From: Candidatus Desantisbacteria bacterium CG1_02_38_46
GTDB taxonomy: Bacteria; Desantisbacteria; UBA1551; UBA1559
Direction of reading: 5' to 3'
Length of the DNA: 7,705 bases
NCBI GenBank assembly: GCA_001871015.1
Contig: MNUO01000071.1
Span: 1-7,705, forward strand
Below the pieces are notes generated by a model. That model made no database searches. It was given only the letters and a program-made list of their open reading frames with translations, and had not been told where the DNA came from. The translations under genes and the position numbers were made by a program. This document shows, in pieces, positions 1 to 7,705 of this stretch; within the stretch, counting starts at the first letter, position 1; each line of letters begins with the position of its first letter.

Positions 1-147
1 GATAAAACTTCTAAACTTGCCTATAAGTGGGTAAACAGAAGAAGTCAGAAGAAAAGTTATACCTTTGAAAGATTTTGTCGCTATTTAAAACATAATCCCT
101 TGCCAGAACCGAAGATATATCATCAATTTTATGCTCTATCCTCGTAG
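1..147 (+). CDS. ltrA: Group II intron-encoded reverse transcriptase/maturase, C-terminal fragment
   Basis: The first 48 codons of frame 1 are the C-terminus of an intron-encoded protein and end at TAG 145-147. The 5' part of the gene is cut off by the window edge. The segment AYKWVNRRSQKKSYTFERF, followed by HNPLPEPKIY, is the typical tail of these proteins (the pattern is WLNRRSQRKSFTW...PLPKPRIY). That tail follows maturase domain X, which binds intron RNA during splicing and retrohoming. The catalytic YADD box would lie upstream and cannot be seen, so activity cannot be judged. The stop lies 18 bases before domain V, a normal layout with the frame ending just ahead of the 3' RNA domains. 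The symbol is used in the generic sense. Confidence 0.85.
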   Translation, partial: DKTSKLAYKWVNRRSQKKSYTFERFCRYLKHNPLPEPKIYHQFYALSS

Positions 148-165
148 TGAGGAAGCATAATTGAA

Positions 166-198
166 GAGCCGAATCTGGGAAATCTGGACGTTCGGTTC
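166..198 (+). ncRNA. Group II intron domain V (catalytic hairpin)
   Basis: A 33-base hairpin with the hallmarks of domain V. The proximal stem of 8 pairs is GAGCCGAA (166-173) with TTCGGTTC (191-198), and it contains the conserved AGC triad at 167-169. A two-base CG bulge follows at 189-190. The distal stem of 5 pairs is 174-178 with 184-188, including two G-T wobbles, and is capped by GAAAT in place of a clean GNRA tetraloop. Total length is one base short of the common 34. Domain V coordinates the catalytic metals for splicing, and all core positions look intact. Confidence 0.85.
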
Positions 199-205
199 TG
201 TGAGG

Positions 206-240
206 GGCATTAAATACCAAATGGAGGTATAAAAGATGTC
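206..240 (+). ncRNA. Group II intron domain VI (branch-point hairpin), overlapping a start codon
   Basis: Two stacked stems can be drawn: 206-210 (GGCAT) with 236-240 (ATGTC), and 214-218 (ATACC) with 226-230 (GGTAT). The loop is 219-225. An asymmetric internal loop holds unpaired adenines at 231-234 on the 3' side, the side where the branch-point adenosine sits in this domain. The distance from these adenines to a splice site at 248 is longer than the usual 7-8 bases, so either the branch adenine or the 3' end is not exactly as drawn. The loop and 3' strand also carry a Shine-Dalgarno (223-228), and ATG 236-238 lies in the closing stem. Confidence 0.6.
223..238 (+). promoter_or_regulatory. 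Ribosome binding site and ATG embedded in intron domain VI
   Basis: GGAGGT (223-228) lies 7 bases before ATG 236-238, an ideal spacing, and it selects this start over in-frame ATGs at 272 and 287. The site lies inside the predicted domain VI hairpin: the GG at 226-227 and the ATG itself are base-paired in that fold. Folding of the unspliced intron would therefore mask initiation, while splicing would remove the site altogether. This is inferred from the predicted pairing only. Confidence 0.6.
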
Positions 241-1153
241 TACTCGACAAAAGCGGATTAGCTTGGGTTTAATGGAGCAGCCGGTGATGAGGCAGAAGGA
301 GATAAACGAGGAGGAAAAGGAAAAAATTAAAGAGATACTTGATTGTGTGACCCATGTGGAAGGGAAGTATTTAGCAACCTTGGAGATTCTGAAGAAAAGG
401 GTGGATGATATTGGAGGTGGGAAACCTTTAATTCTGCATGCACAATACCCTCCTCAGGGGGACGAAGATATGCTGAATCTGGGGAATACAGCCTTTCCAT
501 CTCAATTTGGCAATAGATTCAGTCAAATAATTGATATGTTCGATCCAGAATGGATCTCGTTTCATTTAGGTTTTTCCTGCGAGAAGCTCCTGTCGCGCGG
601 GCAATTTGACTTTGCCATAGCCCAGTCTGAAATCATTCCCCAGGACGTGCTCAGGAAAAGGATGTTAGAGAATATAGAGTTCGTGAGGAAGACCTATCTC
701 AAGAGGGGCGAGATAATTTTAGAGAACCTCGATTATAATCCCAGGGATAAGAGCGGCGCCTATGAGTACGTTTGTGACCCTGATTTCATTGACAGCCTAT
801 TAACCGCCAGCAAATGCGGAATGCTGCTTGATATTGGTCATGCTAATTGTAGCGCGCAAAATATGGGCTATGATAAGATAATGGATTTTATTTTCAAATT
901 GCCCCTGGAAAAGGTAGTGGAGATTCATATGTCTGGAGCAGGGACTAAAGACGGATTAGCCCACGATTCCCATCATCCCATCAATAAGCAAGGGCAGCCG
1001 GAAGTTGGATACCTGGAGGAAATTCTGAAATCCGGGCGTATGACAGGACTTGTTGCAGTGACGCTGGAAACTTTCGAGGAAATTATACCCCAGCTGGAAC
1101 TATTGAGAAATGTGTTAGAGCGACATGGATACACGATAGGAGCGTTAGGATAA
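236..1153 (+). CDS. DUF692/MNIO-family TIM-barrel metalloenzyme
   Basis: A 305-residue protein resembling the DUF692 family, now called MNIO (multinuclear non-heme iron-dependent oxidative enzymes; relatives are MbnB, TglH and ChrH). Signature segments appear in family order along a TIM barrel: LILHAQYPP (H68), WISFHLGFSCE (H110), IILENLDYN (E163), GMLLDIGHANCSAQNMGYD (D199, H202), VVEIHMSG (E229, H231), DSHHP (D244, H246) and VTLE (E278). These acidic and histidine residues match the positions that bind two or three irons, so the active site looks complete. There is no signal peptide, so it is presumably cytosolic. Known members oxidise cysteine-containing peptides, but I see no precursor peptide or partner protein here. 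The sugar-gene neighbours suggest another substrate, possibly closer to the xylose-isomerase-like relatives. The first four codons lie within a group II intron, so the native N-terminus may differ; the conserved barrel starts around residue 7. Family assignment is fairly firm, the reaction unknown. Confidence 0.8.
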   Translation: MSTRQKRISLGLMEQPVMRQKEINEEEKEKIKEILDCVTHVEGKYLATLEILKKRVDDIGGGKPLILHAQYPPQGDEDMLNLGNTAFPSQFGNRFSQIIDMFDPEWISFHLGFSCEKLLSRGQFDFAIAQSEIIPQDVLRKRMLENIEFVRKTYLKRGEIILENLDYNPRDKSGAYEYVCDPDFIDSLLTASKCGMLLDIGHANCSAQNMGYDKIMDFIFKLPLEKVVEIHMSGAGTKDGLAHDSHHPINKQGQPEVGYLEEILKSGRMTGLVAVTLETFEEIIPQLELLRNVLERHGYTIGALG

Positions 1154-1161
1154 GAAAGCGA

Positions 1162-1178
1162 AATAAGCAAAGCTTGTT
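1162..1178 (+). repeat. Hairpin repeat, minimal copy (AATAAGC/GCTTGTT)
   Basis: A 7-pair stem, AATAAGC (1162-1168) with GCTTGTT (1172-1178), includes one T-G wobble and closes on an AAA loop. It is the shortest member of a hairpin family also found at 1209-1243, 7613-7645 and 7672-7702. All keep the outer AATAAG/CTTGTT stem. It starts 8 bases after the MNIO stop codon. With copy 1209-1243 it forms a pair separated by a linker containing AACGTCG (1190-1196). Confidence 0.6.
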
Positions 1179-1208
1179 GCTCGGGAAAAAACGTCGGTAG
1201 AAAGTCGC

Positions 1209-1243
1209 AATAAGAACCTGAACCTTCGGTTCAGAACCTTGTT
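1209..1243 (+). repeat. Hairpin repeat, long copy (7-bp inner stem)
   Basis: The outer stem is AATAAG (1209-1214) with CTTGTT (1238-1243), followed by a symmetric AAC/AAC internal loop and an inner stem CTGAACC (1218-1224) with GGTTCAG (1228-1234) on a TTC loop. Compared with the copies after argS the outer stem, AAC internal loop and TTC loop are the same, but the inner stem has 7 pairs in place of 3 or 4. CGAAATAA at 1270-1277 repeats the left flank of the 1162 copy and may be a further broken unit. The two copies fill most of the 140-base gap before the next gene. The hairpin is too AT-rich outside, and lacks an immediate long T run, to call it a standard terminator. Confidence 0.65.
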
Positions 1244-1293
1244 TCTTTCGGGTAGAGTCGGGGGTAGGGCGAAATAACTGAAAGGGGGAGGTA

Positions 1294-2574
1294 ATGTTTA
1301 ATAATTGCGTTGCAGCCAATCAATCCCGGGTGGAGAAGTTGATTGCTAAAGGAATAAATATTCTGGTACCAGAATCGGTTTTCATTGGAGAAGAAGTAAA
1401 TCTTGATAATCTGGAGCCAGGGGTGGTAGTGGGCCCTGGGATAAAAATTCTGGGAGCAGAGACGATGATTGGAAAAGGTACAGAAATCCAGGGCTCTGCT
1501 GTCATCAAGAACAGCCAGATTGGAAGGAATTGCAGCTTGGCTGCCGGAGAATATGCGGATTCAGTGCTTCTGGACGGTTGCTCCACCGTTGGTTGGGCCA
1601 GGGTTCGTGGCCATAGCGCATGGGAAGAAGAATCCAATTCTGCCCACAATGTGGATACAAAGACAACTATATTAGGATATAAAATTACCCTGGGTTCACT
1701 AATCAACTTTTGCAATGTCCTTATGCTGGGCGGTACCAGTCCACGCCTGGAGGTGGGAGCAGAAGTTGGTTCCGGCACAATAAATTTCAATTTTTTGCCT
1801 TTTGGGCCAACAGTCGGAGCTTTGATTAAACCTTCTACGGTCATTGGCTCTATGGAATCCACTTTCCTGGTCTGTGATGGTGCTCCTACGAGATATGTGT
1901 TTATTGGAGGTCACACCAGTATTATAGCTCCAGTTGTGATAGGTCTGGGCAGTGTTGTTGCTGCCAAATCAAGGGTCAATCCCGGAATATACGGGGATGA
2001 GAAATTGATCGGAGGGGGAAATATCGAGAAGCTGCTGATAAATGAAGTCTCCAAGGTCAGGATTCTCAAGGACATGACTTCGAAATACGAGATTCTCGTC
2101 CGCCAGATGGCAATAGCGGCAGCTTTTAAAAGATGGTGCAACTTGCGGATAGCGTGGGCAAAGAGAAACAACCTGGACGAATTTGAAATAATCCTGATCG
2201 AAAAATTTACTGGAAAAGTTGATAAGTATATAGACGCCCTGGAAGCTTACGGCAATAATATAGCTAAGTATTTACTGGCAGGCGATAATAACTCAAGGCC
2301 AGACAGTTTGAAGAAGAACAAGGAGATCGCCACCCTGTGGAATGAGAAGATTAAATCCCGGATCAAGTCCGCCATGTCTGACGAGACCGGCTATGCAGAT
2401 AGTACTGCTGGGCTGAACTCGGAATTGGACAGGGTAACCAAAGAGGAATCCAGCGGGAGCAAGCAATTCTACAATGCGTTAGCTAAATTGAACTATTCTA
2501 GCAAAGAGGTGAAAGCGGCCAGGGAATATTTCTTGGGACTGGTTGAAACTATAGTGGGGTCAGTAGTGTTCTAA
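1294..2574 (+). CDS. GlmU-like left-handed beta-helix protein lacking the nucleotidyltransferase domain
   Basis: A 426-residue protein. Residues about 25-240 are hexapeptide repeats of a left-handed beta-helix (examples: VVVGPGIKILGAETMIGKG, AVIKNSQIGRNC, TSIIAPVVIGLGSVVAAKS). GSGTINFNFLPFG (159-171) mirrors the GAGTITCNYDG segment of the GlmU acetyltransferase domain. The N-terminal uridylyltransferase domain of GlmU is absent, so it cannot be a normal UDP-GlcNAc pyrophosphorylase. I cannot find a clear equivalent of the GlmU acetyltransfer histidine. Residues about 245-426 are charged, mainly helical and unlike the GlmU tail; I do not recognise them. A sugar-phosphate acyltransferase, or a nucleotidyltransferase partner or scaffold, are both possible. 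The start is chosen because AAAGGGGGAGG precedes ATG, although GGAGG is only 2 bases away; the purine run at 1281-1287 gives better spacing. It ends 13 bases before the kinase gene. Confidence 0.75.
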   Translation: MFNNCVAANQSRVEKLIAKGINILVPESVFIGEEVNLDNLEPGVVVGPGIKILGAETMIGKGTEIQGSAVIKNSQIGRNCSLAAGEYADSVLLDGCSTVGWARVRGHSAWEEESNSAHNVDTKTTILGYKITLGSLINFCNVLMLGGTSPRLEVGAEVGSGTINFNFLPFGPTVGALIKPSTVIGSMESTFLVCDGAPTRYVFIGGHTSIIAPVVIGLGSVVAAKSRVNPGIYGDEKLIGGGNIEKLLINEVSKVRILKDMTSKYEILVRQMAIAAAFKRWCNLRIAWAKRNNLDEFEIILIEKFTGKVDKYIDALEAYGNNIAKYLLAGDNNSRPDSLKKNKEIATLWNEKIKSRIKSAMSDETGYADSTAGLNSELDRVTKEESSGSKQFYNALAKLNYSSKEVKAAREYFLGLVETIVGSVVF

Positions 2575-2587
2575 CAGGAGGTATGAA

Positions 2588-3595
2588 ATGGTTATTGAAT
2601 CTACCGCTCCGACGAGAATAGATTTAGCCGGAGGGGCATTTGATGTTTATCCCCTTTATCTATTTGAAGGCGGAGGGGTTACCGTAAACATGGCCATAAC
2701 TTTACTGAATAAGGTGAGATTGGAGACCAGGGAGGACAAAGAAATACATCTGCACTCTATAGATTTAATGGTTAAGGAAGAGGCAAAGGATGTTGATTCC
2801 CTGAACCTGGAGAGTGAGCTGGGCTTCGTTGCCAGAATCATTAAGTTCTATCGGCCAAAAACTGGCCTGAATGTAACTACAAAGAATACCATTCCCAAGG
2901 GGTCGGGATTGGGTACTTCCTCTTCCCTCTTGATTGCTCTAAGTGGAGCATTGAATGAACTGAATAAAACCGGGGTTTCTGCAGAGCAGTTTATTGACTA
3001 CGGAGCGAATATCGAAGCCCAATCGCTGAAGGTTCCTACGGGCAAACAGGACTATTATGCGGCGGTGTACGGAGGAGTTAATGCCATCTGGTCAGAACTT
3101 AAGGGATGCCGCTTAGAAAAAATTCCCTTTGATGATGAGAGTATTGAAGAATTCAACCAGCGTATAATCCTGAGTTTTACCGGTAAACCCCGATTCTCAG
3201 GAGCGACGAACTGGAATCTGGTAAAGGGATATATTGATGGTGTGGGCAATACCCGCCAGCATCTGCTGGGAATCAAAGCCACAGGATTAAAGATGAGAGA
3301 ATGTCTTCTTGCCCGGGACATGGAGAAGTTTGCTATACTACTGCGAGAAGAATGGGAAAATAGAAAAAGATGCGCAGAGGGAGTAACCACTACCCAGATT
3401 GATAAAATAATTGCCGAAGCCAAGAAAAATGGTGCCCTGGCAAGTAAGCTCTGCGGGGCTGGTGGTGGTGGATGCATGATTACCTATGTCAAAAAGGGAG
3501 ATAGAGAAAAGATAAAAAATGTTTTGCAATCCCTGGGGGCAAAGTATATGGATGCCAGAATAGCAAAACAAGGTTTAACCATCACGACCCAATGA
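2588..3595 (+). CDS. GHMP-superfamily sugar kinase (HddA-like)
   Basis: A 335-residue cytosolic small-molecule kinase with all three GHMP motifs. Motif 1 is APTRIDLAGGAFDVYPLY (7-24), motif 2 is the ATP-binding PKGSGLGTSSS (103-113), and motif 3 is KLCGAGGGGCMI (287-298). GKQDYYAAVYGGVN (152-165) supplies the likely catalytic aspartate D155. The RIDLAGG start resembles heptose-7-phosphate kinase HddA and related sugar kinases more than galactokinase, which has a GRVNLIGEHTDY-type motif. The substrate is probably a sugar or sugar phosphate but is not determined. AGGAGGT (2576-2582) lies 5 bases before ATG; an out-of-frame ATG at 2583 is ignored. The stop overlaps the start of the next gene in ATGA, so the two are probably translationally coupled and work together. 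Family is secure, exact function is not. Confidence 0.9.
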   Translation: MVIESTAPTRIDLAGGAFDVYPLYLFEGGGVTVNMAITLLNKVRLETREDKEIHLHSIDLMVKEEAKDVDSLNLESELGFVARIIKFYRPKTGLNVTTKNTIPKGSGLGTSSSLLIALSGALNELNKTGVSAEQFIDYGANIEAQSLKVPTGKQDYYAAVYGGVNAIWSELKGCRLEKIPFDDESIEEFNQRIILSFTGKPRFSGATNWNLVKGYIDGVGNTRQHLLGIKATGLKMRECLLARDMEKFAILLREEWENRKRCAEGVTTTQIDKIIAEAKKNGALASKLCGAGGGGCMITYVKKGDREKIKNVLQSLGAKYMDARIAKQGLTITTQ

Positions 3596-4677
3596 AAAAT
3601 ATATTGTTTTATATCAGCGGTCATGGGTTCGGTCATTCCACAAGGATGATAGAGGTAATGAATAAATTATTTTCCTTAGATTCTCAAGTATCCATTTATA
3701 TCCGCACAAGTGCCGCGAAAGGGCTCTTTGAAAGGAACCTCCCCTTCAGATTTTATTACTCTTATTTTGTCGGGGATGTAGGAATAGTTCAGAAAGACAG
3801 CCTTACCCTGAATGAATTAGAGACGCTTGAAAAATATGCAGATTTGATTGTTGGAAACAAAAAAGACCTTCTTTCTGAGGAACTTAATTTTGTAAAGAGG
3901 AATGGTATTTCCCTGATTGTGGGGGACATTCCTCCCCTTGCCTTTGATATAGCGGACAAAGCAGGAGTTTGTGGCATAGCCATAAGCAATTTTTCCTGGG
4001 ATTGGATTTATTCTCCATTCGTGGAAGCACATCTTCAGTATCAATATTTACTTGAGGCGATTAAACAAGATTACGCAAAGGCAGATATACTTTTGAGGCT
4101 TCCTTTCCATGGAGATATGTCTGCTTTTCGCATCGTAGAAGATATTCCACTTATTGCCCGCAAGTCAGGTGTTTCTAGAGAGGAAATCTTACACAAACTC
4201 AATGTAGGTGAAGATGAAAAAAGAAAAGTTATTCTCTTATCATTTGGCGGAATTAATCCTCCACGGGAGCTCTTTGCTAAAATAAAGGGCTGCGAAAATT
4301 ATCTCTTTCTTTCAGCGGCGAAACTGAAAAAAAAGTCTACGAATATGATTATTCTTCATAAATGGAATTCTTTTTCATACCATGATCTGGTAAAAGCGAG
4401 TGATTTAGTAATAACGAAATTGGGTTATGGCATTGTTTCTGAATGTATTGCCAATCGTACCCCGATTATGTATACCTCTACAGATTCTCGCGAATATAGT
4501 GTGCTTCTTCCCGCGATAAAGGAATATGCGCATTCATATTTTATTCCCAGGGAGGATCTCCTCAGTGGAAACTGGAAAGCCCATCTCGATAAATTTTTTG
4601 ATACAAAATATCACTGGCCCACAATTAATATTAATGGAGCAGAAATTGCCGCAAGAAAGATTTTAGAAAAAATGTAA
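3592..4677 (+). CDS. Glycosyltransferase-like protein related to the N-terminal half of plant L-arabinokinase
   Basis: A 361-residue protein with the two-domain look of a GT-B (MurG-like) glycosyltransferase. It opens with ILFYISGHGFGHSTRMIEV, the glycine-rich loop seen as YYVTGHGFGHATR in plant arabinokinases. Further matches in the same order, from memory of that family, are LEKYADLIV (82-90), AISNFSWDWIYSPF (131-144), ILLRLPFHGDMSAFR (167-181), VILLSFGG (213-220), ASDLVITKLGYGIVSE (271-286) and INGAEIAARKIL (346-357). No signal peptide or membrane helix is visible. It starts in an ATGA overlap with the upstream kinase, so no separate ribosome site is needed. In plants such a domain is fused to a GHMP kinase; here the kinase is a separate upstream gene. 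It may transfer a sugar, or bind one for the kinase. Family resemblance is strong, activity unknown. Confidence 0.85.
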   Translation: MKNILFYISGHGFGHSTRMIEVMNKLFSLDSQVSIYIRTSAAKGLFERNLPFRFYYSYFVGDVGIVQKDSLTLNELETLEKYADLIVGNKKDLLSEELNFVKRNGISLIVGDIPPLAFDIADKAGVCGIAISNFSWDWIYSPFVEAHLQYQYLLEAIKQDYAKADILLRLPFHGDMSAFRIVEDIPLIARKSGVSREEILHKLNVGEDEKRKVILLSFGGINPPRELFAKIKGCENYLFLSAAKLKKKSTNMIILHKWNSFSYHDLVKASDLVITKLGYGIVSECIANRTPIMYTSTDSREYSVLLPAIKEYAHSYFIPREDLLSGNWKAHLDKFFDTKYHWPTININGAEIAARKILEKM

Positions 4678-4701
4678 GAGTGAATAATTGAGGAGTCTGA
4701 T

Positions 4702-5403
4702 ATGAGAGTATTAGCAGTTGGCGCACATCCTGATGATATTGAAACATTTTGTGCAGGTACTTTAGTAAAATGTGCAAAACGAGGAGATGAAGTTTTTATG
4801 GCTTATCTTTGTAAAGGAGATAAGGGACATTTTAAAATTCCTCCAAAAAAATTATCTCAGATAAGAAAAAAGGAAGCAGAAAATGCAGCAAAAATTATTG
4901 GTGCAAAAGTTCTTGGAGGATATTTTCCTGACTTAGAACTTTATGCAAATCAAGAAGCAAGACATAAGGTGGTTGAACTTATTCGGCTTGCACAACCAGA
5001 TATGATTATTACTCATTTTCCTGATGACTATATGGCTGACCATAATACTACCTCGTGTTTAGTTGTCGATGCGAGTTTTACTGCCACTGTTCCCTATTAC
5101 AAAAGTAATCAAAGGGCAACAAAGAGCATTCCTCCGGTTTTCTTTATGGATACTGGCGCCGGTATAAATTTCCAACCCACAGAATATGTGGATATTACTG
5201 AAGAGATGCGAATAAAAGAAAGAATGTTAGACTGTCATCAATCACAATATAAATGGCTTAAGGAACATAACCATATTGATTTAGTGGAATTTATGAAAAA
5301 ATTAGCCAGTTTGCGTGGAGTACAATGCGGTGTCAAATATGCTGAAGGATTTCGTCAATACGCTGTTTGGGGACGAATTAAAACCACTCGTTTGTTGCCT
5401 TAA
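4702..5403 (+). CDS. PIG-L/LmbE-family zinc deacetylase
   Basis: A 233-residue enzyme of the PIG-L (LmbE) fold, which removes N-acetyl groups from GlcNAc-containing lipids or small molecules (relatives are MshB and BshB). The zinc motif GAHPDD (7-12) gives H9 and D12, and FPDDYMADHNTTS (106-118) gives the third ligand, H114. D11 is the likely catalytic base. The C-terminal YAEGFR (213-218) is common in the bacterial subfamily. Length is normal and there is no signal peptide. GAGGAG (4690-4695) lies 6 bases before ATG. It is the last gene of the five-gene run, 24 bases after the glycosyltransferase-like gene, so an N-acetylated glycoside made upstream is a natural substrate; that is inference. 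Codons are markedly AT-rich: bases 4801-4860 are 30% GC by count, against 48% for 2881-2940 in the kinase. Confidence 0.9.
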   Translation: MRVLAVGAHPDDIETFCAGTLVKCAKRGDEVFMAYLCKGDKGHFKIPPKKLSQIRKKEAENAAKIIGAKVLGGYFPDLELYANQEARHKVVELIRLAQPDMIITHFPDDYMADHNTTSCLVVDASFTATVPYYKSNQRATKSIPPVFFMDTGAGINFQPTEYVDITEEMRIKERMLDCHQSQYKWLKEHNHIDLVEFMKKLASLRGVQCGVKYAEGFRQYAVWGRIKTTRLLP

Positions 5404-5413
5404 TAGAAATTTC

Positions 5414-5441
5414 TTGACTTTTTTGCTTTTTTTGATAAAAT
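5414..5441 (+). promoter_or_regulatory. Sigma70-type promoter for tRNA-Thr
   Basis: TTGACT (5414-5419), one mismatch from the -35 consensus, is followed after 16 bases by TAAAAT (5436-5441), one mismatch from TATAAT. The spacer is T-rich. TATAAT at 5443-5448 is a perfect -10 box but sits 23 bases from the -35, so it is less likely. Transcription would start about 15-20 bases before the tRNA at 5468. It lies directly after the deacetylase stop codon, which suggests a new transcription unit; no terminator hairpin is visible between them. Confidence 0.7.
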
Positions 5442-5467
5442 ATATAATAAATATGAAGGATGATATT

Positions 5468-5542
5468 GCCGATGTAGCTCAACTGGTTTAGAGCGCCTCA
5501 TTCGTAATGAGGGGGTTACCCGTTCGAATCGGGTCATCGGCT
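5468..5542 (+). tRNA. tRNA-Thr (anticodon CGT)
   Basis: A full 75-base cloverleaf. The acceptor stem is GCCGATG with CATCGGC (7 perfect pairs), the D stem GCTC/GAGC, the anticodon stem CCTCA/TGAGG with loop TTCGTAA, the variable region GGGTT, and the T stem ACCCG/CGGGT with loop TTCGAAT. The anticodon CGT (5503-5505) reads threonine codon ACG. The discriminator base is T (5542), used by some threonine tRNAs. CCA is not encoded, so it must be added by a CCA-adding enzyme. There is no intron. Confidence 0.95.
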
Positions 5543-5575
5543 ATCCATAAAAGGTAATACTTAAGCTGTCAGATG

Positions 5576-5629
5576 TGTAACTCAGACCTTCAGGTCTGAT
5601 TTTATTCAGGGCTAAAGCCCTGAGTTACA
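5576..5629 (+). repeat. Palindromic three-way-junction element
   Basis: An outer stem TGTAACT (5576-5582) with AGTTACA (5623-5629) encloses two hairpins. They are CAGACC-TTCA-GGTCTG (5583-5598) and CAGGGC-TAAA-GCCCTG (5607-5622), separated by the linker ATTTTATT. Every stem is perfectly paired. CAGGGCTAAA recurs at 5633-5642, which looks like a broken neighbouring unit. This regular design suggests a dispersed palindromic repeat (REP- or MITE-like). It lies between the tRNA and the small membrane protein gene and could also affect transcript ends. The stretch 5404-5661 holds only the promoter, the tRNA, this element and the next ribosome site. Confidence 0.7.
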
Positions 5630-5661
5630 TCGCAGGGCTAAATAATTAAGAGGAGGGTAAG

Positions 5662-5958
5662 ATGATGGGATGGGTTGGGTTTATAGCTTCAGTAGTGATT
5701 GCGCTTATTGTTGGTTCAATCTTTAAGGTTTTCAGAGAGGCACGCGGAGGCAACCTATTTGTTGCATTGATTGGTGCCCAGCTTGGCATTTTCCTGTATA
5801 AGAGCACAGGAGGTACAGGAAGATTATGGACTGGGATAATAGGTATTCTTTGTGCGGTTGTGGTGAGTTGGCTGCTCAGTTTAGGAGGGAGATCAGAAGA
5901 AGAAACTAAAGTAGAAAGTTCTGAAACTCCACCTACTCCGCCCGCACAGAATCCTTAA
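5662..5958 (+). CDS. Small three-helix membrane protein, GlsB/YeaQ/YmgE-like
   Basis: A 98-residue inner-membrane protein. Hydrophobic segments at about 3-22, 34-50 and 58-76 predict three membrane helices. A short soluble tail (77-98) is acidic and then proline-rich (SETPPTPPAQNP). Size, glycine spacing and the GG between the first two helices resemble the GlsB/YeaQ/YmgE (transglycosylase-associated protein) family. That family is linked to envelope stress but has no defined biochemical role. AGGAGG (5651-5656) lies 5 bases before ATG 5662; ATG 5665 would give 8 bases, so the first methionine is not certain. It ends 6 bases before argS and may be co-transcribed with it. The family call is tentative because helices of this kind match loosely. 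Confidence 0.7.
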   Translation: MMGWVGFIASVVIALIVGSIFKVFREARGGNLFVALIGAQLGIFLYKSTGGTGRLWTGIIGILCAVVVSWLLSLGGRSEEETKVESSETPPTPPAQNP

Positions 5959-5964
5959 ATTATA

Positions 5965-7605
5965 ATGAAAGGGAAATTATCACAGATAATAGAAGAATCT
6001 TTAAAAAAAGCCATATCTGTTAGAGAATTACAGCTTGACAAGTTTCCTTTTTCTGTCATCATAGAAAAACCCAAAGATAAAGTCCATGGCGACCTCAGCG
6101 TTTCAATTGCTTTCAGTTTAGCTGAAAAGTGCAAAAAATCACCTCTGGAAGTTGCAAGTATAATTTACAAACATCTGAAACCAGAAACTGGATTTATTGA
6201 AAAAGTTGAAATTGCTGGCGGGGGTTTCTTAAATTTCTTTATCAGCAAAACATACCTGTGCAAATCCATGATCGAAATTACAAGAAAAGGAAATAAATTC
6301 GGTCATTCTAATACAGGGGGTGGTAAGAGAATTCAGGTTGAATTCGCCAGCGTTGGACCCACTGGGCCTGTTCATATAGGACATTCAAGGGGTGCAGTAA
6401 TAGGGGATGTTCTCGCCAATATCCTTGAGGAAGTTGGATACAGGGTAACGAGGGAATATTACATCAATGATGTTGGAACTCAGATAGAAATACTGGGAAA
6501 GTCATTGATGGCTCGCTATGAAGAGATTCTGGGCAAAAAACCAGAAGTTTTAGAGGGTGGATACGAAGGACAGTATATCTCAAATCTTGCTATTAAACTG
6601 AAGGAGAAATATGGAGAAGGTTGTCTTTCGAAAGACGTTAGTTTCTTTTCCTGTTTTGCAGTTAATGAAATCCTGGTCGGAATTAAAAAAGACTTTGAAG
6701 ATTTTGGTGTCAGATTTGACAAATGGGTTAATGAGTCCGAATTATATCACAGAGGTGAAGTAAAAAATACCATCGAGTTGCTGAAAAAGAAAGGGTGGAC
6801 AACTCTTGAGAATGGAGCATTATGGTTCGCAGACGATGTTCTTGTTCGTTCCAGTGGTGTTCCTACATATTTTGCGTCTGATATTGCTTACCATTTGGGT
6901 AAATATAAACGCAAATTTTATTGTATTATTGACATCTGGGGCCAGGACCACCATGGACATGTTTCAAGGTTGGGGAATGCCTTAAAGGTTATTGGCTGTG
7001 ATGTGAATAAGCTGGAAGTTATTCTATACCAGCTCGTAAGTCTTTCACGTCGAGGCGAACCGGTAAAAATGTCGACCCGGAAAGGTGAATTTATAACTTT
7101 ACGGGAAGTGATGGATGAAGTTGGGCGTGATTCAATTCGTTTTTTCTTTCTCATGCGCAAAAGTTCAAGCCATCTGAATTTTGACCTGGAGCTGGCAAAA
7201 GCACAATCGCTTGAGAATCCTATTTATTATGTGCAATATGCTCACGCCAGAATTTTCAGTATATTTAGAGAAGCAAAGAAACAATTTAAAATTAAAAATT
7301 CCCCTACCATTAATGATTGGCGGGAATTAGAAATTCTGAATGAAGAAGTTGAAATTGATATTATGAAAAAACTTGCATTTTTTCCTGATGAAATTGCCAA
7401 AATAGCTCTGGCAAGAGAACCACAGGGACTTACAGTGTATCTTCAAGAACTTGCAGCGCTTTTTCATAGGTTTTACACTGAGCACAGGGTAATAAGTAAT
7501 AATTTAAATTTGACACACGCTCGGTTTGTCCTTATCAATTCGGTTCAAATTGTATTGGCAAAGGGACTCAGACTGATGGGTATTGAACCCAGGAAACGGA
7601 TGTAA
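5965..7605 (+). CDS. argS: Arginyl-tRNA synthetase
   Basis: A complete 546-residue class I synthetase that attaches arginine to tRNA-Arg in the cytosol. The N-terminal tRNA-binding domain is residues 3-93, including KVHGDLSVSIAFSLAE. The catalytic Rossmann fold follows, with EFASVGPTGPVHIGHSRGA (HIGH at 137-140) and KMSTRKGEF (KMSKS equivalent at 368-372). WGQDHHGHVSRL and VPTYFASDIAYH are typical ArgS active-site segments. The DALR-type anticodon-binding domain begins near YVQYAHARI (422-430) and runs to the usual C-terminus ending in M. Length is normal and all key motifs are intact. Only 6 bases separate it from the previous stop, and I see no Shine-Dalgarno before ATG 5965, so translation probably relies on coupling to the small membrane protein gene. 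It is a housekeeping gene with no evident tie to the sugar cluster. Confidence 0.97.
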   Translation: MKGKLSQIIEESLKKAISVRELQLDKFPFSVIIEKPKDKVHGDLSVSIAFSLAEKCKKSPLEVASIIYKHLKPETGFIEKVEIAGGGFLNFFISKTYLCKSMIEITRKGNKFGHSNTGGGKRIQVEFASVGPTGPVHIGHSRGAVIGDVLANILEEVGYRVTREYYINDVGTQIEILGKSLMARYEEILGKKPEVLEGGYEGQYISNLAIKLKEKYGEGCLSKDVSFFSCFAVNEILVGIKKDFEDFGVRFDKWVNESELYHRGEVKNTIELLKKKGWTTLENGALWFADDVLVRSSGVPTYFASDIAYHLGKYKRKFYCIIDIWGQDHHGHVSRLGNALKVIGCDVNKLEVILYQLVSLSRRGEPVKMSTRKGEFITLREVMDEVGRDSIRFFFLMRKSSSHLNFDLELAKAQSLENPIYYVQYAHARIFSIFREAKKQFKIKNSPTINDWRELEILNEEVEIDIMKKLAFFPDEIAKIALAREPQGLTVYLQELAALFHRFYTEHRVISNNLNLTHARFVLINSVQIVLAKGLRLMGIEPRKRM

Positions 7606-7612
7606 ATGGCCA

Positions 7613-7645
7613 AAAAATAAGAACCTCTTCGAGAACCTTGTTTTT
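7613..7645 (+). repeat. Hairpin repeat after argS, first copy
   Basis: The outer stem AAAAATAAG (7613-7621) pairs with CTTGTTTTT (7637-7645): 9 pairs with one T-G wobble. An AAC/AAC internal loop follows, then CTC/GAG on a TTC loop. It shares the outer stem, internal loop and loop with the copy at 1209-1243 but has a 3-pair inner stem. It begins 8 bases after the argS stop. With a T run on its 3' arm it may help end the argS transcript, though the hairpin is weak. Confidence 0.65.
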
Positions 7646-7671
7646 CGCAAAATAAACGTCGTGGGTTGGTC

Positions 7672-7702
7672 AAAATAAGAACCTCTTCGAGGACCTTGTT
7701 TT
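7672..7702 (+). repeat. Hairpin repeat after argS, second copy
   Basis: AAAATAAG (7672-7679) pairs with CTTGTTTT (7695-7702). Inside, CCTC/GAGG closes on a TTC loop. It differs from the copy at 7613 by a single base over the shared region from AATAAG to the final TTTTTCG: G for A at 7692, which adds one inner pair with C7682. The two copies are 58 bases apart, joined by a linker with AAACGTCG (7654-7661). The array runs to the window edge and may continue. Confidence 0.65.
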
Positions 7703-7705
7703 TCG

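Follow-up and report, generated by a model that had tools for sequence, protein, structure and literature searches.

The 7,705-nt stretch of Candidatus Desantisbacteria bacterium CG1_02_38_46 analyzed here (contig MNUO01000071.1, positions 1 to 7,705; herein referred to as the window) opens inside a group II intron whose terminal bases provide the Shine–Dalgarno (SD) sequence, the ATG and the first four codons of the adjoining MNIO-family gene. We consider it very probable (roughly 0.8) that this intron belongs to a lineage specialized for start codons and equipped with a built-in translational insurance, such that spliced and unspliced RNA would both keep the interrupted gene on. The case is built on the insertion site, the reading frame, the intron-borne start, an empty site and a set of intron scars, each read from genomic sequence. 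With good but slightly lower confidence, we further propose that the lineage is widespread, that it recognizes start codons through an anti-start exon-binding site 1 (EBS1) and tolerates insertion into essential genes by translational bypass, and that genomes holding many start-codon introns later kept the last intron bases as gene starts.

A Group II Intron Terminus Carries the Start Codon of the MNIO Gene

The features that carry the argument lie at the beginning of the window (the junction between intron and exon is written ^ throughout):

1..147, + strand: C-terminus of the reverse transcriptase/maturase, the intron-encoded protein (IEP); last 48 residues plus TAG stop, frame 1
164..199, + strand: group II intron domain V (DV); Rfam RF00029
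200..248, + strand: domain VI (DVI); end of the Rfam RF00029 match, divergence of five genomic copies after 248, predicted fold
223..227, + strand: intron-borne SD, GGAGG, in the distal part of DVI; from sequence
236..248, + strand: intron-borne start ATG (236-238), codons MSTR and the first base of codon 5, ATGTCTACTCGAC; from sequence
249..1153, + strand: 3' exon, MNIO-family gene (MbnB_TglH_ChrH, PF05114; Pfam 58.4 bits), in frame with the intron ATG

The contig start falls within the intron, inside the IEP, and the translation of 1-147 matches the C-terminal end of an intact IEP, a TIGR04416 (group_II_RT_mat) protein encoded by a related intron in genome G116. RF00029, which spans DV and DVI, matches 164-248 with 47.4 bits (E 4e-7; gathering score of 40 exceeded) and stops exactly at C248, giving an intron that terminates in GAC; this is the only D5/6 motif of the 7.7-kb window, and the bulged A242 of the predicted DVI fold is the probable branch point. 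The boundary at 248 is fixed independently of Rfam because the intron 3' end occurs five times in the window's genome (a metagenome-assembled genome, MAG, of 1.73 Mb in 133 contigs), and these five copies, identical through GATGTCTACTCGAC^ apart from one single-base difference, diverge at 249 or a few bases beyond. Related introns that lack the ATG end in the same terminal CTACTCGAC. Codon 5 of the MNIO gene straddles the junction, with its C coming from the intron and two bases from the exon (CGA C^AA). An earlier, sequence-only reading of this DNA had proposed that the SD, ATG and MSTR residues of the MNIO gene come from the end of DVI, and had named an intron end upstream of 223 as the outcome that would speak against it; the Rfam match to 248 and the divergence of the five copies after C248 bear the proposal out.

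Each of the five copies sits at a contig edge, as expected of a collapsed multicopy repeat, and in 5/5 the intron ATG is in frame with the exon, which is a different, unrelated gene each time. The products are the MNIO protein (305 aa when read from the intron ATG), an OmpA-like protein of 483 aa with a signal-peptide-like start, an M50 peptidase of 209 aa, a peptidase/permease-like protein of 1478 aa and a 375-aa protein, where the four names other than MNIO are readings of the sequences and not the outcome of family searches.

The Intron Interrupts a Native Start

The intron 5' end (GUGYG, followed by the domain I-IV core) is present as GTGYGCC at contig ends of the window's genome and in relatives, three of which also match RF02005. 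Three 5' ends in the window's genome, GGAGGAAAGAGATGA^, GAGGTGGGAAAATGA^ and GGAGGGAAATAAAATGA^, each continue into GTGTGCC, and all three follow the pattern SD...ATGA^GTGTGCC. ATGA likewise precedes the intron in four relatives, and the 5' junctions of the near relatives and the window's genome all read ATGA^GTGYGCC. In the multicopy genomes of Facilibium subflavum and an Ignavibacteriales MAG, taken together, ATGA stands at 22 of 24 5' ends, the remaining two being ATGG and ATGC; the pattern marks 31 intron 5' ends in F. subflavum (G194; L079, L101, L194 and others; 2.9 Mb), a named cultured strain that would make a good experimental host. An SD match of at least 4 lies at the right distance in 28 of the 39 5' exons having an ATG, compared with 3-6 in control windows further upstream. 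The complete genome of Uabimicrobium (L102) carries one copy, for which the pattern search gave no 5' end. Known 5' exons thus mostly end in ATGA behind an SD, and the insertion point lies one base into codon 2, with ATGA on its 5' side and A on its 3' side.

The sequence-only reading had called for a comparison of N-termini with orthologs lacking the intron. MNIO homologs cannot serve for this, as those in 59 relatives are just 27-34% identical and too divergent to align at the N-terminus; the M50 peptidase gene was therefore used instead, and it reveals an empty site. In the nearest relative (G001), which belongs to the same order, nadE is followed by an M50 peptidase gene starting GGGGAGGTATT GTG ACT ATA GTT. 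In the window's genome, contig C105 terminates as nadE...GAGGTGGGAAA ATG A^intron, and contig C76 opens as intron^AC ATA TTA TTA, with an M50 peptidase orthologous to that of the relative (66% identity). These two halves, which lie on separate contigs and were paired by synteny, give MNILLSLVALG when joined, against VTIVLQLIALG in the relative, codon for codon and with no MSTR at the empty site. Of the two possibilities that the sequence-only reading had set against each other, that the intron interrupts the gene or that it supplies its start, both appear to hold, since a native ATG+A stands in the 5' exon and the intron brings a start of its own. The exchange of N-termini by splicing that it foresaw also agrees with these data: MSTRQ- would be replaced by MK-, the predicted spliced start of the window MNIO gene being ATGA^AAAAGCGG (MKKRISLG).

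Frame and Start Signals across the Lineage

To describe the lineage beyond this genome, we used a pattern comprising DV and DVI with an ATG ahead of TCTACTCGAC, which requires the ATG itself but requires no SD, frame or gene. At least 114 stretches matched, of which 80 loci were taken and 79 copies were usable; many of these loci share multicopy genomes, and each, in its own flank, was counted as a separate insertion. Among the matches listed, record titles include Deltaproteobacteria, Nitrospira, Spirochaetia, Elusimicrobia, Ignavibacteriales, Planctomycetota and others, and target genes include adk, ispH, groES, glnA and ridA; once the native ATGA is put back, the Adk, IspH, GroES and RidA proteins align to their families from the first residues (profile position 1). 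The first exon base is A at 73 of the 80 listed loci, and an SD of at least 4 is found in 35 of 37 distinct leaders, against 17.8 expected from shuffled leaders.

An in-frame open reading frame (ORF) of at least 60 aa follows the intron ATG in 50 of the 79 listed copies, whereas a 1- or 2-base shift of the exon leaves 7 and 6 such copies (Fisher p 5.5e-19); as background, an ORF is found at 22% of all ATGAA sites in the same DNA. The other 29 listed copies have no long ORF, and some insertions are therefore not at gene starts, or have decayed. It could be argued from these 29 copies, and from the existence of intronless genes that start with MSTR, that the intron merely lands upstream of genes and carries a coincidentally in-frame ATG, or that it ends before the SD and MSTR is native to the gene. 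This we regard as very improbable: the frame bias is strong, the boundary at 248 is set by both Rfam and the five copies, related introns without the ATG share the terminal bases, and MSTR is missing from the empty site. Chance landing, an upstream intron end and a native MSTR were accordingly rejected on the frame statistics and the boundary evidence.

The IEPs of relatives score above the TIGR04416 cut-off, and in the IEP tree the ATG-bearing reverse transcriptases fall in one clade (support 93/94), inside which the one true exception has ATA for ATG; the tree label "non-ATG" of a further member (L155) is wrong, its DVI having lain outside the range scanned, and L155 is an ATG-type copy. Viral contigs gave no match to the DVI pattern. 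One relative (L254) is located on the Caedibacter taeniospiralis plasmid pKAP298, where the frame opened by the intron ATG runs for just 10 codons. This copy sits ~20 nt before the start of another gene, which its short frame overlaps through a terminal ATGA, an arrangement that could couple the translation of the two.

Intron Scars

Two genomes that yielded no reverse transcriptase match, one 99% complete (G147) and one a single contig (G058), contain genes that begin with the last bases of the intron, as SD-ATGT(C/T)TACTCGAC: at least four in the former (L050, L058, L059, L060) and one in the latter, all in frame, with A as the next base and no intact DV. Further genes of this kind are found in G087 and in the window's genome. 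Judged from base counts, a genome like these should contain far less than one chance occurrence of the 13-mer. The sequence-only reading had held that orthologs free of any intron that begin with MSTR would count against an intron origin, and intronless genes starting with MSTR do exist, albeit not among MNIO orthologs. They share the exact 13-mer at synonymous positions, the SD and the A at +1 across unrelated families, and because these are common to unrelated families, such genes are best read as intron scars, which could stem from a 5'-truncated insertion or from later deletion.

The scars are the strongest sign that the intron-borne start functions without splicing, as implied by the persistence of scar genes in genomes without a detectable reverse transcriptase. 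The set in G147 suggests that introns once invaded this genome in a burst and that their bodies were lost afterwards. Host genes may, in this manner, gain new N-terminal residues and new translation starts from a retroelement, and we suggest that some annotated MSTRQ and MSTRH N-termini are intron-derived.

Proposed Target Recognition and a Model for Near-Harmless Insertion

Most ATG-type introns, and the 5' end in the window's genome, contain UUCAU in a loop at intron position ~194-228, which is complementary to AUGA^A across the exon junction; the loop was not found in L133, and the non-ATG relatives examined have neither a UUCAU loop nor an ATGA 5' exon. This loop is probably EBS1-like and would recognize AUGA^A. 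No segment complementary to the native SD was seen by eye in the 5' end from the window's genome, and we make no claim of anti-SD recognition by an EBS2. In predicted DVI folds, the intron AUG pairs with a CAU in the basal stem and the SD lies in or beside a distal hairpin, making it plausible that DVI folding gates the intron-borne start.

We propose that UUCAU pairs with AUGA^A during reverse splicing and thereby directs insertion to the start codon. Splicing would rejoin ATGA to AA... and restore the native start MK..., whereas on an unspliced or 5'-truncated copy the ribosome would take the SD and AUG of DVI and make MSTRQ..., a protein with a short MSTR-type leader. The folding of DVI and the loading of a ribosome probably rule each other out, so that each RNA would be either spliced or translated, and the lineage hence offers a testable case of competition between ribosome and splicing on one RNA domain. 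Because either route would give full-length protein, insertion would be nearly harmless even in essential genes, allowing high copy number. Splicing, EBS1 pairing, the exclusivity of the two routes and the benefit to the element are the parts of this model that we infer.

The sequence-only reading had gone further and seen in the intron a switch for the MNIO operon. In such a switch, host conditions would set the level of splicing, DVI folding would gate the intron start, and the operon would be tuned by whether MK- or MSTR- protein is made. The predicted DVI structure does cover the AUG and part of the SD, and each RNA form would give a protein with its own N-terminus, but the proteins would otherwise be nearly identical and no sensor or host factor was identified. 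Across many phyla, the same arrangement recurs at dozens of genes that are unrelated to one another, housekeeping genes included, a pattern more in keeping with a transposon that avoids harm than with a regulator, and in an analogous intron of Clostridium tetani the levels of splice forms are little altered by conditions (PMC3919590). Operon control is hence unsupported, and we think it quite unlikely.

Several observations weigh against a start-codon lineage with translational insurance, in addition to the copies without a long ORF. Both a full-length intron copy and a complete IEP of the lineage are absent from the assembly of the window's genome. The 5' exon of the window MNIO gene was not identified; three contig ends are candidates, one of which is assigned to the M50 gene. 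Six 5' ends in Nitrospira sp. Bin_21_1 (G193; L195, L198, L201, L204, L207, L210) are preceded by TTGA, GTGA or TGAA, a variant that is perhaps a sister intron with a different target. Covariation in DVI is weak (6 of 16 consensus pairs with a two-sided change in at least one sequence; covariation term -0.15). As an observation of its own, the L210 5' end in Nitrospira sp. Bin_21_1 sits within the 5' part of another intron.

The assembly gap, together with scar genes elsewhere that have no intact intron, might also mean that the window copy no longer splices and persists as a promoter or leader element, with the gene using the intron-borne start alone, as in scars. We judge this unlikely, if marginally less so than operon control: contig breaks inside a near-identical repeat are what collapsed multicopy introns would produce, three 5' ends are intact, one of them paired to a 3' end by synteny, and DV and DVI are intact in the window.

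Genomic Context of the Window

The MNIO gene is the first of a gene run (249-5403) that continues with a hexapeptide-repeat protein, a GHMP kinase, an unassigned protein and a PIG-L deacetylase, an unusual context for MNIO; no precursor of a ribosomally synthesized and post-translationally modified peptide (RiPP) was noticed in this run. Short hairpin-like units (AATAAGAACCT...GAACCTTGTTT...TCG) occupy intergenic positions 1203-1255 and 7610-7705, 3' of the MNIO and arginyl-tRNA synthetase genes, respectively, and look like a small dispersed repeat. Elsewhere in the genome, contig C76 (35277-36491; locus L234, also L007) encodes a second, distant group II intron-type reverse transcriptase without start-codon features.

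Comparison with Known Systems

By its sequence, the present lineage is a mobile group II intron, with DV and DVI including a predicted bulged A, a GUGYG 5' end and an IEP. We found no description of a start-codon-targeted group II intron in the open literature; the 2007 work by Michel lay outside our coverage, and priority is uncertain. Ferat in 2003 and Michel in 2007 reportedly described a group II intron in the termination codon of groEL in Azotobacter, which would likewise occupy a coding boundary of an essential gene and allow unspliced RNA to give protein, but at the stop end of the gene and not at its start codon. The c-di-GMP-controlled intron of Clostridioides difficile is also self-splicing, adjoins a start codon and affects the ribosome-binding-site context by splicing; it is, however, a group I intron under ligand control that is not spread over many genes with an SD-ATG of its own.

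A further likeness is to C.te.I1 of C. tetani, in which start codons lie within D5/6 motifs, unspliced RNA is plentiful and additional isoforms are encoded by the spliced RNAs (PMC3919590), much as the start codon here lies inside DVI. C.te.I1, however, lacks an IEP, carries four D5/6 motifs in tandem, uses a 5' splice site displaced by 8 nt and fuses a surface-layer ORF to downstream ORFs (PMC3919590), whereas the present lineage is a mobile one with a single D5/6, found at the start codon of individual genes. Class B introns with a 3' extension also have an unusual 3' end for bacterial group II introns, yet they add 53-56 nt beyond DVI (PMC3261151), whereas in the present copies divergence sets in at the canonical DVI end (248) or a few bases from it, and the additions are internal to DVI. 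Class C (IIC) introns insert at terminators and attC sites (PMC4424553) and are, like the present lineage, specialized for one type of functional site and not for one homing gene, but their target is not a start codon and they supply none. The known 5' exons of the present lineage end in SD-ATGA. A 2015 review recognizes three target types (homing sites, terminators and attC) and places most bacterial group II introns outside housekeeping genes (PMC4424553); the present lineage appears to evade this limit by combining start-codon insertion with a spare start, which could explain its many copies per genome, a number of them within housekeeping genes.
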